Shown here piece by piece: positions 1 to 6,746 of a stretch of DNA of 42,917 nucleotides (its first letter is position 1; every line of letters begins with the position of its first letter). Under the pieces are notes generated by a model. The model was given only the letters and a program-made list of their open reading frames with translations, was not told where the DNA came from and did not search any database. The position numbers and the translations under genes were made by a program. The DNA is from Candidatus Omnitrophota bacterium (GTDB taxonomy: Bacteria; Omnitrophota; Gorgyraeia; Pluralincolimonadales; Pluralincolimonadaceae), in the NCBI GenBank assembly GCA_003141835.1, contig PLNR01000011.1, forward strand, positions 171,804 through 214,720. Direction: 5' to 3'.

Positions 1-768
1 AAGCTCTACCTTTGCTTTCTCCGCGGCTTCGCGCAGCCTCTGGACAGCCATCTTGTCGTTCTTTAAGTCGATGCCTGTCTCGCGCTTGAATGCGCCGACA
101 AGATAATCTATAAGGGCGTTGTCCATATCGGTGCCGCCCAGCTGCGTGTCGCCGTTGGTGGACAATACCTCGAAACCGCTCGCCTTCTGTTCTTTGTCAT
201 ACCACATCTCCATGATGGTGACGTCGAGCGTGCCGCCGCCGAGGTCGAAGACCATTATCTTCATCTCTTTTTCGGCCTTGTCGATGCCGTATGCCAAACA
301 CGCGGCCGTCGGTTCGTTTATTATGCGTAATACTTTAAGGCCCGCTATCTCGCCGGCATCTTTCGTAGCCTGGCGCTGGTTATCGTTGAAATACGCGGGG
401 CATGTGATGACCGCTTCGACCACACTGTCGCCCAGGTATGCCTCTGCATCCTGTTTGATCTTCTGCAGTATGAACGCGGATATCTGCTGGGGCGTATAAT
501 CCTTGCCGTATACGCTGAATTTATAATCGGTGCCCATCTTGCGTTTCGCGGCCTGTATCGTCCCTTCCGGGTTTATCGCCGCCTGCCTGCGCGCCGGCTC
601 GCCGACCAGGCGGGTTCCGTCCTTCGTGAAGGCCACATAAGACGGGAACGCTTTTCCGCTCGCCACTCCCGCGCCTTCTGCCGACGGTATTATCGCCGGG
701 CGGTCGCCTTCCATCACAGCTGCCGCCGAGTTCGACGTGCCCAGATCTATACCTATCGCCCTTGCCAT
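1..768 (-). CDS. dnaK: Molecular chaperone DnaK (N-terminal part; runs off window start)
   Basis: Minus-strand translation from ATG at 768: [32 protein letters not shown]...[45 protein letters not shown]...[13 protein letters not shown]; classic Hsp70 ATPase motifs. Not in the ORF track because truncated. Confidence 0.98.
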
Positions 769-2403: not shown

Positions 2404-3666
2404 CTAAAGTTTATCACAATAACCTTTTTTGTCAAGCAAATTTTTTAGCCTGGCAGGCATGTCGGCTTCGAGGTAGACCCGGTCGCCCTTGAATTCCCTC
2501 TTTATTATGCCCGCCTCCCGGTAGACCTGGTTAAGGAGCTTGGCCTCGGATTGCGGGATCGAGACCCTGACATAGACGAGCGAGGCAAAAAGTATCATCG
2601 ATATCCTGCGGACAAGTTCGTCCAGGTTCTCTTTATGCAAGGCCGAGACCGCGATGGAATTCTCGAATTCTTTCTTGAGCCGGTCCACTGCTTCTTTCTC
2701 CGGGACCTTGTCTATCTTATTAAGTAATGTCACGATGGGCTTGTCGTGTATGCCCAGCTCTTCGAGGACCTCATAAACGGCCTGGCTCAGTTCACCGGCT
2801 ATCGGGCTGGACGCGTCAAGGACGTGGACGAGCAGGTCAGCCTCGACGACCTCTTCGAGCGTCGCCTTGAACGCCTCGATAAGATGGTGCGGCAGGTCAT
2901 GCAGGAACCCGACCGTATCGACAAAGACGACCTTCTGGTTGTTCGGCAATATGAACCTCCGCGCAGTCGGGTCCAGGGTCGAGAATAGCCTGTCCTGCGC
3001 CACGACGTCGGAATCGGTGAGTGCGTTCAACAATGTCGATTTGCCTGCGTTCGTGTAGCCGATCAGCGAGACTATGGCGAGGTCGCTCTCATGGCGTTTA
3101 CGCCTTAGCTCCTCCCTCCGTAAATGTATCTTCTTAAGCTCATCCTTGAGCTTTACGATCTTCTCCCTTATCTTGCGGCGGTCCATCTCCAGTTTCTGCT
3201 CGCCCGGGCCCCTTGTCCCGATCCCACCTCCGAGGCGCGAGAGCATTATGCCTTTGCCTTTAAGGCGCGGCAGCAGGTACTGTAATTGGGCGAGCTCGAC
3301 CTGGACCTTTCCCTCGATAGAGTGCGCCCTGCGCGCGAATATGTCGAGGATGAGCTGGGTCCTGTCGATGACCTTCACGTTCATTATATCTTCGAGGTTC
3401 TGCTGCTGGGTCGATGATAGGTCGTCGCCGAATATGACGACGTCCGCGCCTTTATCCTTGCAGATGAGGCCGATCTCCTCGGCCTTGCCCTTGCCGATGA
3501 ACTGCCCCGCCATCGGGGCTTCCTTAAAACACTCTATGAGATCGACGACCTCGAGGCCCGCGGACCTGACCAGTTCCTTGAGCTCGAAGTTGACATCATC
3601 GAGTTTCCAGGTGTTCTTGTACCTCCTATCGAAAAATTCGACGGTAATTAAGAGAGCTTTTTCCAT
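2404..3666 (-). CDS. hflX: GTPase HflX
   Basis: 'RLGGGIGTRGPGEQKLEMDRRKIREKI' HflX signature, 'GYTNAGKSTLLNAL' P-loop, 'DTVGFLHDLPHHLIEAFKATLEE' G3 region, 'NKID' G4. Confidence 0.97.
   Translation of the reverse strand: MEKALLITVEFFDRRYKNTWKLDDVNFELKELVRSAGLEVVDLIECFKEAPMAGQFIGKGKAEEIGLICKDKGADVVIFGDDLSSTQQQNLEDIMNVKVIDRTQLILDIFARRAHSIEGKVQVELAQLQYLLPRLKGKGIMLSRLGGGIGTRGPGEQKLEMDRRKIREKIVKLKDELKKIHLRREELRRKRHESDLAIVSLIGYTNAGKSTLLNALTDSDVVAQDRLFSTLDPTARRFILPNNQKVVFVDTVGFLHDLPHHLIEAFKATLEEVVEADLLVHVLDASSPIAGELSQAVYEVLEELGIHDKPIVTLLNKIDKVPEKEAVDRLKKEFENSIAVSALHKENLDELVRRISMILFASLVYVRVSIPQSEAKLLNQVYREAGIIKREFKGDRVYLEADMPARLKNLLDKKGYCDKL
2408..2435 (-). promoter_or_regulatory. Sigma70-like promoter of hrcA-grpE-dnaK, inside the 3' end of hflX
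   Basis: Minus strand: TTGACA (2435-2430), 16-nt spacer, TAAACT (2413-2408); expected TSS falls in the CIRCE. Confidence 0.7.
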
Positions 3667-4565
3667 AACCCGCGAGCGGTCTCCTCTGTATCAAAATCCT
3701 CGTCCAGCATTATCCATTCGACCCTCTTGTCGCGCCTGAACCACGTGAGCTGGCGTTTCGCGAAATGCCGCGTGTTCCTCTTCACTAACCTTTTCGCCTC
3801 TTCCAGGTCGTATTCCCCGTTAAGATATCCCAATACTTCCTTATACCCAAGCGCCTGCGAGGCGGTAAGGCTCAACTTCCCTTCGAGCAGGCCCCTCGTC
3901 TCGTTCACCAGGCCTTCGGCGAACATAAGTTCGACTCGTTCGTCTATCTTCCCGTATAACGCCGGGCGTTCCATATTAAGGCCGAAGATCCTGACTTCAT
4001 ACTTATCTCCTAATCCGGCCGTATTTTTCCTTAATTGCGATATCGGCGCCTTGGCTTTCTGGTATACCTCCAACGCCCTTATTATCCTGCGCAGGTCGTT
4101 CGGATGTATCTTGGCGGCCCCCTCTTTGTCCGTCTCCTGCAGCCTGCGGTATAAAGCCCCGACACCGAACTCGGCCGCCTCCTCTTCAAGGCATCTCCGT
4201 AATTCCCTGTCGGTCTCCGGCGCCTCGAAAATTCCGTCTATCAGTACTTTGACATAAAGTCCGCTTCCCCCGACCAATAGCGGCGTCCTTCGCCTTGATA
4301 TTATCTCTTCGATAGCTTTGACTGCGAGTCCGCGGAATTGGGCGACAGAGAATTCCTCAGACGGCTCGATGATGTCTATCAGGTGGTGGGGTATCGAATT
4401 AAGGAGGCGCCTCGCCGGCTTTGAGGTCCCGACGTTCATCCGCCTGTAGACCTGCATCGAATCGCAGGAAACTATCTCGCATTCGATGAGCTTCGCGAGC
4501 TCAAAGGATATGCCGGTCTTGCCTATCGCGGTCGGGCCGACCAGGAATACGAGCCTGTTCGCCAT
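3648..4565 (-). CDS. miaA: tRNA dimethylallyltransferase MiaA
   Basis: 'VGPTAIGKTGISFELAKLIECEIVSCDSMQVYRRMNVGTSKP', 'HHLIDIIEPSEEFSVAQF', 'GGSGLYVKVLIDGIF', 'RNTRHFAKRQLTWFRRD'. Confidence 0.97.
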   Translation of the reverse strand: MANRLVFLVGPTAIGKTGISFELAKLIECEIVSCDSMQVYRRMNVGTSKPARRLLNSIPHHLIDIIEPSEEFSVAQFRGLAVKAIEEIISRRRTPLLVGGSGLYVKVLIDGIFEAPETDRELRRCLEEEAAEFGVGALYRRLQETDKEGAAKIHPNDLRRIIRALEVYQKAKAPISQLRKNTAGLGDKYEVRIFGLNMERPALYGKIDERVELMFAEGLVNETRGLLEGKLSLTASQALGYKEVLGYLNGEYDLEEAKRLVKRNTRHFAKRQLTWFRRDKRVEWIMLDEDFDTEETARGLWKKLS

Positions 4566-4568
4566 ATG

Positions 4569-6746
4569 CTACGGGAGGACCTTTGTCGGGAGGCCTTCCG
4601 CGCGAAGTTTTTTCGCGAGTTCTTCCGCCTCTTCCCTGGTGTTAAGCTTTCCGACCCTGACTTTGTTGGATTCCTCGCCCTGCAGCTTCGCTATCGAGGC
4701 ATCATAACCCTTCCTTACAAGTTCGTCGCAGAGTTTGAGCGCGTTCGCCTTATTATTGAACGAGCCGACCTGCACCGTAAAATACAGGGTCTCCTCGCGC
4801 AGGGCCTGCGCGGACATCTCGGACTCAAAACTTGACGGGAAATCCGACCTCACCTTCTGGTAATGGTCCCTGGCGTCCTGCCATTTGCCTTCTTTCTGCT
4901 CGCATTTCGCGATCCTGAAATAGGCCGTGGCCGCGCCCTGCGACCTGGGATACTTGGCGAGGTACTTCCCGTATTCGGCCATGGCGCCCTTGAAATCTCC
5001 GGCAAGGTAATAGCTGTCGGCTGTCCCCAGCTGCGCGAGCGGAGCCAGCCCGCTCCCCGGGAACGTCTCTATAAGCGTATTGAAATTCTTCCTGGCGAGG
5101 TCATACCTGCCCAACTTGTTCAGGCTCGTGCCCATCATATAGAAGACCTTGTCTTTCTCCCTGGATGTCCCGAGCGCCTTCACGCCTTCGCGCACCGTAT
5201 TCTCGTAATCGCCGCTGACAAAATATCCTTCGATGGTCCCTGTTATCTCAGCCTTAACGGCATTACAAAATATCCCGCCGGCCAAAACAATAAATAACAC
5301 GGCTGCGCCGACCAGTGTATGCGCCAAAACCGACTCGACCATGACCGTCTTTAATTTGCCTATAAGGTCGGACGTCCCGACCGTAACTACCTTTATATTC
5401 TGCCTGTTCCTTCCTGTCACTTTATGTTTTTCCTTTCTGCATATGTTTTCAACGAGGACTTCAGCCTGGCCGCCTATGAACTCCTTATCCTTCAGGCCTG
5501 ATATCTTATCCCGCAGCTCCAGCAGCACCTGGTTGCGCTCTTCCTTTACGCCTTTCGGCACGTCATCTTCGAGCCCGCTCGCCTTTGCCGGCGGCCGCGG
5601 GGAATACTTGAATATGAACGCGGAATTGAACTCTACGTCCTCCATGAGCTTTTTTGTCATCATAAAATCTTCGTCCGATTCCCCGGGATAGCCCACTATG
5701 ACATCTGTGGTTATCGCGCAATCGGGGACGTGCTTGCGGAGCATCTCGACCTTTTTCAGGTATTCGGCCGCCGTATATCCCCTGTTCATGGACTTCAATA
5801 TTCTATCAGAACCGGACTGCAAGGGCAAATGGAGATGCTCGCAGACTTTCGGAAGGTCGCGCATAGCCTTAAATAAATCCTCTCCCGCGTCTTTAGGATG
5901 GCTCGTCAGGAAGCGGATGCGCTCGATTCCGTTGATCTTATTTATATCCTCTAACAATCTGGCAAAATTACATGATCCAGGGGTCAGGGATCGGGATTCA
6001 GGCTCTTGGCGGGTGACTGCCGACGGAGCCCTTGTCCCTGCTGCTTCGCAAAGCTGCGGGGACGAGGTGCTCGGCAGGCAGGACCCGCTGATTTCGCGAT
6101 CCCTGAACCCTGAATATGAATTTACATTCTGCCCCAGCAAAGTGACTTCTTTGTATCCGTTATCCGCCAGCGCTTTTATCTCGTCAATTATGCTTTCCGC
6201 CGGCCTGCTGACCTCCCGCCCCCTTACATACGGCACGATGCAATAAGAACAGTAATTATTACAGCCCTCCATTATGGTCACGAGGGCCGATATGCCTTTC
6301 GTATGGTACGCGATATTTCCGATATACGGGCGCGCCTCTTTATCGGTCGCAATTACCGCGTCCCTGCGGTTTACAAGGATGCTTTCGACGGTAGCGGGAA
6401 TATCGTAAATATTGGCAGGGCCGACGATGAAATCGACTATAGGCAGCGTCTCTATGATCTTCCTGCCCTGCGCCTTGGCCATGCAGCCGACTACGCCGAT
6501 GACGAGGCCGGGCCTCTTCTTCTTCAGGGCCTTAAGTTCGCCGATATTGCTTATCGCGCGGTCCTCGGCATGCTTCCTGACCGAGCATGTATTGAATACG
6601 GCTACATCCGCGTCTTCGGCCGAATCCGCGAGCGCCCAGCCCTTCTGCATGAATATGCCGACGATCTCTTCCGAATCCCGGAAGTTCATCTGGCATCCGA
6701 AAGTGCGAAGGTAAACCTTCTTTTTTTGTATCTCTTTATTCATCAT
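4569..6746 (-). CDS. miaB: tRNA methylthiotransferase MiaB with an internal in-frame insertion, fused at the C-terminus to TM-TPR-SPOR domains (single 725-aa ORF)
   Basis: N-terminal UPF0004 cysteines (TFGCQMN, NTCSVRKHAEDR, GVVGCMAKA), radical-SAM CNNYCSYC, TRAM tail 'GRNRQNIKVVTVG...AHTLVG'; then TM 'AAVLFIVLAGGIFC', TPR-like repeats, and SPOR-like 'LYFTVQVGSFNNKANALKLCDELVRKGYDASI...VRVGKLNTREEAEELAKKL'. Confidence 0.93.
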   Translation of the reverse strand: MMNKEIQKKKVYLRTFGCQMNFRDSEEIVGIFMQKGWALADSAEDADVAVFNTCSVRKHAEDRAISNIGELKALKKKRPGLVIGVVGCMAKAQGRKIIETLPIVDFIVGPANIYDIPATVESILVNRRDAVIATDKEARPYIGNIAYHTKGISALVTIMEGCNNYCSYCIVPYVRGREVSRPAESIIDEIKALADNGYKEVTLLGQNVNSYSGFRDREISGSCLPSTSSPQLCEAAGTRAPSAVTRQEPESRSLTPGSCNFARLLEDINKINGIERIRFLTSHPKDAGEDLFKAMRDLPKVCEHLHLPLQSGSDRILKSMNRGYTAAEYLKKVEMLRKHVPDCAITTDVIVGYPGESDEDFMMTKKLMEDVEFNSAFIFKYSPRPPAKASGLEDDVPKGVKEERNQVLLELRDKISGLKDKEFIGGQAEVLVENICRKEKHKVTGRNRQNIKVVTVGTSDLIGKLKTVMVESVLAHTLVGAAVLFIVLAGGIFCNAVKAEITGTIEGYFVSGDYENTVREGVKALGTSREKDKVFYMMGTSLNKLGRYDLARKNFNTLIETFPGSGLAPLAQLGTADSYYLAGDFKGAMAEYGKYLAKYPRSQGAATAYFRIAKCEQKEGKWQDARDHYQKVRSDFPSSFESEMSAQALREETLYFTVQVGSFNNKANALKLCDELVRKGYDASIAKLQGEESNKVRVGKLNTREEAEELAKKLRAEGLPTKVLP
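5981..6110. repeat. Large palindromic element inserted in frame within miaB
   Basis: Nested complementary arms: GGGTCAGGGATCG (5981-5993) / CGATCCCTGAACCC (6097-6110); GCGGGT (6009-6014) / ACCCGC (6083-6088); TGCCGA (6018-6023) / TCGGCA (6071-6076); GTCCC (6034-6038) / GGGAC (6059-6063). Confidence 0.85.

Follow-up and report, generated by a model that had tools for sequence, protein, structure and literature searches.

The window, the whole 42,917-nucleotide stretch of a Candidatus Omnitrophota contig analysed here (genome G000, 1.57 Mb), carries miaA and miaB (Table 1), with the miaA product acting as the partner enzyme in the step directly before MiaB. The miaB product matches the Radical_SAM, UPF0004, TPR and SPOR domains and scores 469 bits against TIGR01574 (cut-off 355); judged by these profile matches, it is a genuine MiaB. 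Its reading frame remains uninterrupted by stops despite an insert in the loop that follows the NVNSY strand. The C-terminal part of the frame (window 4569–5330) encodes a signal-peptide-like hydrophobic stretch followed by TPR and SPOR regions with no stop between, an odd fusion of a cytoplasmic tRNA enzyme to an envelope-type SPOR protein that is conserved across six genomes belonging to three genera (G000, G002, G004, G005, G007 and G008). An internal start is possible. Throughout, G002, G003 and G004 are congeners of G000, while G005, G007 and G008 belong to sister genera.

Table 1. Features of the miaB locus (window coordinates)
Feature	Position	Strand	Remarks
miaA (IPP transferase)	3648..4565	minus	PF01715, E 1.8e-85; context only
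miaB ORF	4569..6746	minus	725 aa; MiaB methylthiotransferase with in-frame hydrophobic-TPR-SPOR C-terminal extension
In-frame insert, 141 nt / 47 codons	5970..6110	minus	Reference is the empty allele of G002
Outer inverted-repeat arm, left	5975..5996	.	TCAGGG units inside; outside the repeat family
80-bp copy of the dispersed ~77-bp palindromic element	6009..6088	minus	Coding sense GCGGGTCCTGCC...AGTCACCCGC
Outer inverted-repeat arm, right	6094..6115	.	Final five bases in the flanking TAT-TCA codons

The insert was delimited against the empty-allele loop of congener G002, which reads NVNSYRDFIGLL, and contains the stretch EISGSCLPSTSSPQLCEAAGTR. An earlier sequence-only reading had placed a nested palindrome of about 40 residues at 5981–6110; the insert is real and in frame, with its extent revised to 5970–6110 and 47 codons. 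The long nested hairpin proposed by that reading is borne out by folding, since the RNA forms a nested hairpin of −83 kcal/mol (z −7.6) and the DNA folds with a z of −9.1, none of 200 shuffles doing as well. What had been regarded as one element is a composite, in which a dispersed, mobile 80-bp core sits within an unrelated outer inverted repeat whose 22-nt arms are imperfect (86% complementary). The outer ~60 nt have no relative among 39 genomes, with up to 3 mismatches allowed, and may represent a separate event; being unique among these genomes, the outer arms were rejected as a repeat family. A comparison of 5900–6200 with Rfam gave no family match at E values up to 1.

The central 80 bp recur in six further copies in the same genome (E 8e-10 to 9e-19), which upholds the expectation of additional genomic copies, although these lie in spacers and not, as had been proposed, in other coding sequences. 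The congeners G002, G003 and G004 hold 8, 5 and 4 copies, respectively, and 34 further genomes from this class have none; altogether, the ~77-bp sequence is present at more than 20 loci besides miaB. Aligned copies span 74–80 bp, typically 77; their arms hardly vary and their bulges are conserved, while the apical stem is variable, and the ends are the imperfect terminal inverted repeats GCGGGT...ACCCGC with their long conserved arms. Specifically, the apical stem shows changes on both sides with pairing kept at 4 pairs, giving a covariation score of 0.084; shuffles score 0.050, and none of 500 reaches the observed value. Because pairing survives these two-sided changes, the hairpin itself matters to the family, whether in DNA or in RNA. 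The element is also stop-free in five of six frames and can therefore be read in frame, a degree of openness that is unremarkable by itself for a short GC-rich sequence.

When 84,980 species genomes were scanned with a pattern of 20 specified bases from the 5' arm, complete elements were confined to Omnitrophota MAGs; matches in actinobacteria and other GC-rich genomes were discarded as chance half-matches with an unconvincing second arm. Phage carriage was rejected, as IMG/VR contains no exact match to the same pattern. As far as these searches reach, the ~77-bp repeat forms a family of its own that is restricted to one genus, and no copy was detected beyond the Omnitrophota. Sharing an orthologous site does not make two copies clearly more similar than sharing a genome, and three G003 copies group together, a clustering that suggests homogenisation or renewed insertion. 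One G002 copy (L085 ~453–560, minus strand) carries ~30 extra bases within one arm, possibly a nested insertion.

Apart from the miaB copies, every copy whose context was read lies in a spacer, nearly always between co-directional genes. The spacer sites comprise tpiA-pgk, groES-guaB, glnB-glnA, an ABC-transporter pair, gpmA-uvrD, murG-murC, pfkA-dus and the region upstream of mfd; some are common to two or three species (tpiA-pgk, groES-guaB, glnB-glnA), while others differ. Coding copies are limited to the two in miaB (about 2 of 24 copies), and the family overall is consequently not especially protein-coding. Two further candidates for coding copies were rejected: the copy at mfd (L003) is placed upstream of the gene because the Mfd matches of relatives start at about the same place, and the L022 copy, crossed by a long ORF, precedes a probable signal peptide and was counted as a spacer copy. 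A second palindromic repeat of ~235 bp (GCAAATTC...GAATTTGCGGCC) follows the 77-bp element at L003 1579–1810, L005 1578–1800 and L032 1177–1400, as if the two travelled together. At murG-murC, the element is found in G002 only, where it supplies the murG stop codon; in G005 the two genes have no spacer between them. The same spacer in G003, G004 and G000 (L187, L188 and L189) holds a different repeat-like sequence of ~130 nt, GACGTTGCGACCAGGC...GCGAGACTTAAATTTCAA. In G001 (L190), a CCCCTC..GAGGGG hairpin lies between murG and murC, and an apparent DUF559/VSR-like endonuclease-type protein is encoded upstream of murC.

Comparison of miaB alleles reveals that the gene is free of the element in G002, G005, G007 and G008, in agreement with the prediction of empty-site orthologues, and occupied in G000 and G004. 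In both filled alleles the element occupies the same loop and is in frame, but its orientation in one is the reverse of that in the other. These copies could descend from one insertion in the common ancestor of G000 and G004 followed by inversion in place, or from two insertions; the single-insertion history, which is compatible with the explanation preferred below, is given slightly less than an even chance. It is favoured by the sister relationship of G000 and G004 (support 100 in a tree of 666 codons) together with the empty G002 allele, and recombination between the outer 22-nt inverted arms could flip the core. Against it, the flanks of the two miaB copies show no clear alignment, and in the gpmA-uvrD spacer the element is reversed in G000 relative to G003 and lies at a different distance, which indicates independent insertions there. 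Any target duplication at the filled versus empty miaB and murG-murC sites is unreadable, the flanks being too diverged.

At the protein level, miaB is under purifying selection, with a dN/dS of about 0.13 between G000 and G004 when the insert is excluded, and the cluster-binding cysteines (Cys18/54/88 and 162/166/169, ORF numbering) are invariant. An AlphaFold model computed from the window's MiaB and 22 of its relatives reaches a pTM of 0.77, and its best PDB match is MiaB 7mjy (TM 0.83/0.90). Within this model, residues 215–258 have pLDDT values below 50 and are flanked by a strand (200–204) and a helix (261–269), so that the insert is predicted to give a disordered loop some 47 residues long, in keeping with the surface loop that had been suggested from the sequence. 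The NVNSY loop is short in the 22 other MiaBs and usually comprises 12–20 residues in Omnitrophota MiaBs; relative to G002, the B. uniformis MiaB structure has a natural 9-residue loop at the same place. Since the insert lengthens a naturally variable loop, the predicted fold is probably intact. The open frame and the selection on the gene point to a translated insert, and the MiaB that carries it is presumably active.

Collectively, these features are very probably explained by the insert being a copy of a non-autonomous, hairpin-forming ~77-bp repeat that is tolerated as a translated surface loop of MiaB. The repeat would have spread through a single Omnitrophota genus with few copies per genome, chiefly into spacers of co-directional genes, and one copy would have landed in the miaB loop that follows the NVNSY strand. 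The frame would have been kept through the openness of the element in five of six frames and a net insert that is a multiple of three. Because this loop varies naturally in length, the protein would still fold and presumably function as MiaB, with a disordered segment about 47 residues long, and would have escaped removal by selection. More generally, selection would purge insertions unless they fall in spacers or permissive loops. The spread itself would be non-autonomous and enzyme-driven, by a mechanism acting at the DNA level. A search of the Y1 family yielded no mobilising enzyme: RAYT-type transposases (PF01797) are absent from G000, G002 and G003, with one in G004, and Y1/RAYT mobilisation was rejected because the host genome G000 has no Y1 match. 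Counting against this explanation are the outer inverted repeat, which the ~77-bp family does not account for, the restriction of coding copies to miaB, the unreadable target duplication and the negative result of the enzyme search.

Length variation of this loop in all MiaBs would also accommodate natural expansion of a fast-evolving loop that became palindromic by chance. The probability of such an origin is practically negligible, as it is refuted by the dispersed copies of the same 77-bp sequence, and the hairpin that beats every shuffle and the reversed copy of the same sequence in sister G004 speak against it as well. Mobile bypassing elements occur in some yeast mitochondria, and with so stable a hairpin the insert might be left untranslated, being cut from the RNA or bypassed by the ribosome. 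Bypassing would require neither frame nor openness, yet the two miaB copies, though oppositely oriented, each keep the frame and lack stops, and other long MiaB-loop inserts examined elsewhere in the phylum are likewise stop-free; this reading is very improbable.

The almost invariant arms and covarying apical stem, together with the spacer copies between co-directional genes, some at the same site in two or three species, could instead reflect a hairpin kept for regulation, with an mRNA fold or cruciform tuning miaB translation, or with the spacer copies affecting operon mRNA stability or attenuation. Neutral spread would, however, account equally well for copies that face either way with respect to the genes, for their presence or absence among congeners, and for the unrelated repeats that take the place of the element in these spacers and loops. 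In miaB, moreover, no conserved role is apparent, as relatives manage without the element. A regulatory role is considered quite improbable, and tolerated insertion of a mobile repeat is retained as the preferred reading.

The likeness to Rickettsia palindromic elements (RPEs) noted from the sequence alone holds in functional terms, as this is a dispersed palindrome with intergenic copies and stop-free in-frame copies in a conserved enzyme gene that is empty in relatives, the pattern of a protein-coding palindromic element. RPEs are palindromes of ~100–150 bp found in spacers and, stop-free, in frame in conserved genes (PMC2229807, PMC10969869, PMC3767692, PMC4224334); Gmk with an RPE insert, the one tested enzyme, is still active (PMC2229807, PMC10969869), and WPE-like inserts, the Wolbachia palindromic elements, behave likewise (PMC4224334). 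Different RPE families share insertion sites, and orthologues may carry different elements nearby (PMC3767692). Whereas nearly half of the R. conorii RPEs were coding as first reported (PMC10969869), the GC-rich Omnitrophota core of 77 bp is confined to a single genus, with about 2 of 24 copies coding. With the 5'-arm pattern as the basis of comparison, complete elements were found only in Omnitrophota MAGs; because no copy was detected outside Omnitrophota, the family resembles RPEs in its working and not by descent.

The MITE-like enterobacterial repeats ERIC/RU-1, RU-2 and RU-3 are imperfect intergenic palindromes of ~100–170 bp with open frames and occasional in-frame fusions (PMC2229807). 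The Omnitrophota element is likewise an imperfect intergenic palindrome with open frames and has the imperfect terminal inverted repeats typical of MITEs, but it lacks TA ends and a readable target duplication and differs in sequence and host. REPs measure 20–40 bp and bear a GTAG or CGTC tag (PMC3733652). Although hairpins are dispersed in spacers in both systems, the unit here is 77 bp long and begins GCGGGT, without a GTAG/CGTC tag on a 20–40 bp palindrome, and neither the host nor G002 or G003 encodes a PF01797 protein. A limited literature search found no description of such elements in Omnitrophota or in MiaB. Protein-coding palindromes have so far come chiefly from Rickettsia and Wolbachia, in addition to ERIC-like enterobacterial cases; a separate family with empty, filled and reversed alleles in congeners indicates that genes have captured repeats in frame independently in bacteria other than the host-associated Rickettsiales. 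MiaB also offers a single enzyme for measuring directly, across a phylum, how well a fold tolerates captured repeats.

Among 89 Omnitrophota MiaB sequences, the NVNSY loop holds many unrelated in-frame repeats. For example, the loop of G085 contains the palindrome CTTCGACAGGCTCAG, present in 71 copies in that genome; that of G022 is composite, with parts matching about 48 other places in its own genome; and that of G019 combines a hairpin with dispersed heptamers. Heptamer arrays occupy the loop in roughly ten genomes from other genera (lag-7 identity p 0.002). Two further loops, which follow G002 MiaB residues 75 and 123, also carry palindromes and heptamers. Loop frequencies within the 89 are biased because 11 sequences belong to the two focal species or were picked for long or split loops; without these 11, inserts of at least 12 residues number 8 at site 208 (the NVNSY loop), 7 at site 75 and 5 at site 123. 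An uncaveated hot-spot count for site 208 was therefore rejected, the three loops being about equally often hit, and this site appears distinct by its insert size, the largest of the three, and not clearly by frequency. A bolder proposal, that Omnitrophota MiaB surface loops are a recurrent site of in-frame domestication of many unrelated dispersed repeats, in which selection keeps altered MiaB output or tRNA handling through the loop or the mRNA hairpin, is unlikely; if true, repeat invasion would tune tRNA A37 modification. A second insertion place lies directly before RIRFTTSHP, where the MiaB of G027 (L141) carries the perfect hairpin CCTGTCAGGTGAGCCGGCTGGCTCACCTGACAGG and that of G017 (L057) a 65-residue insert.
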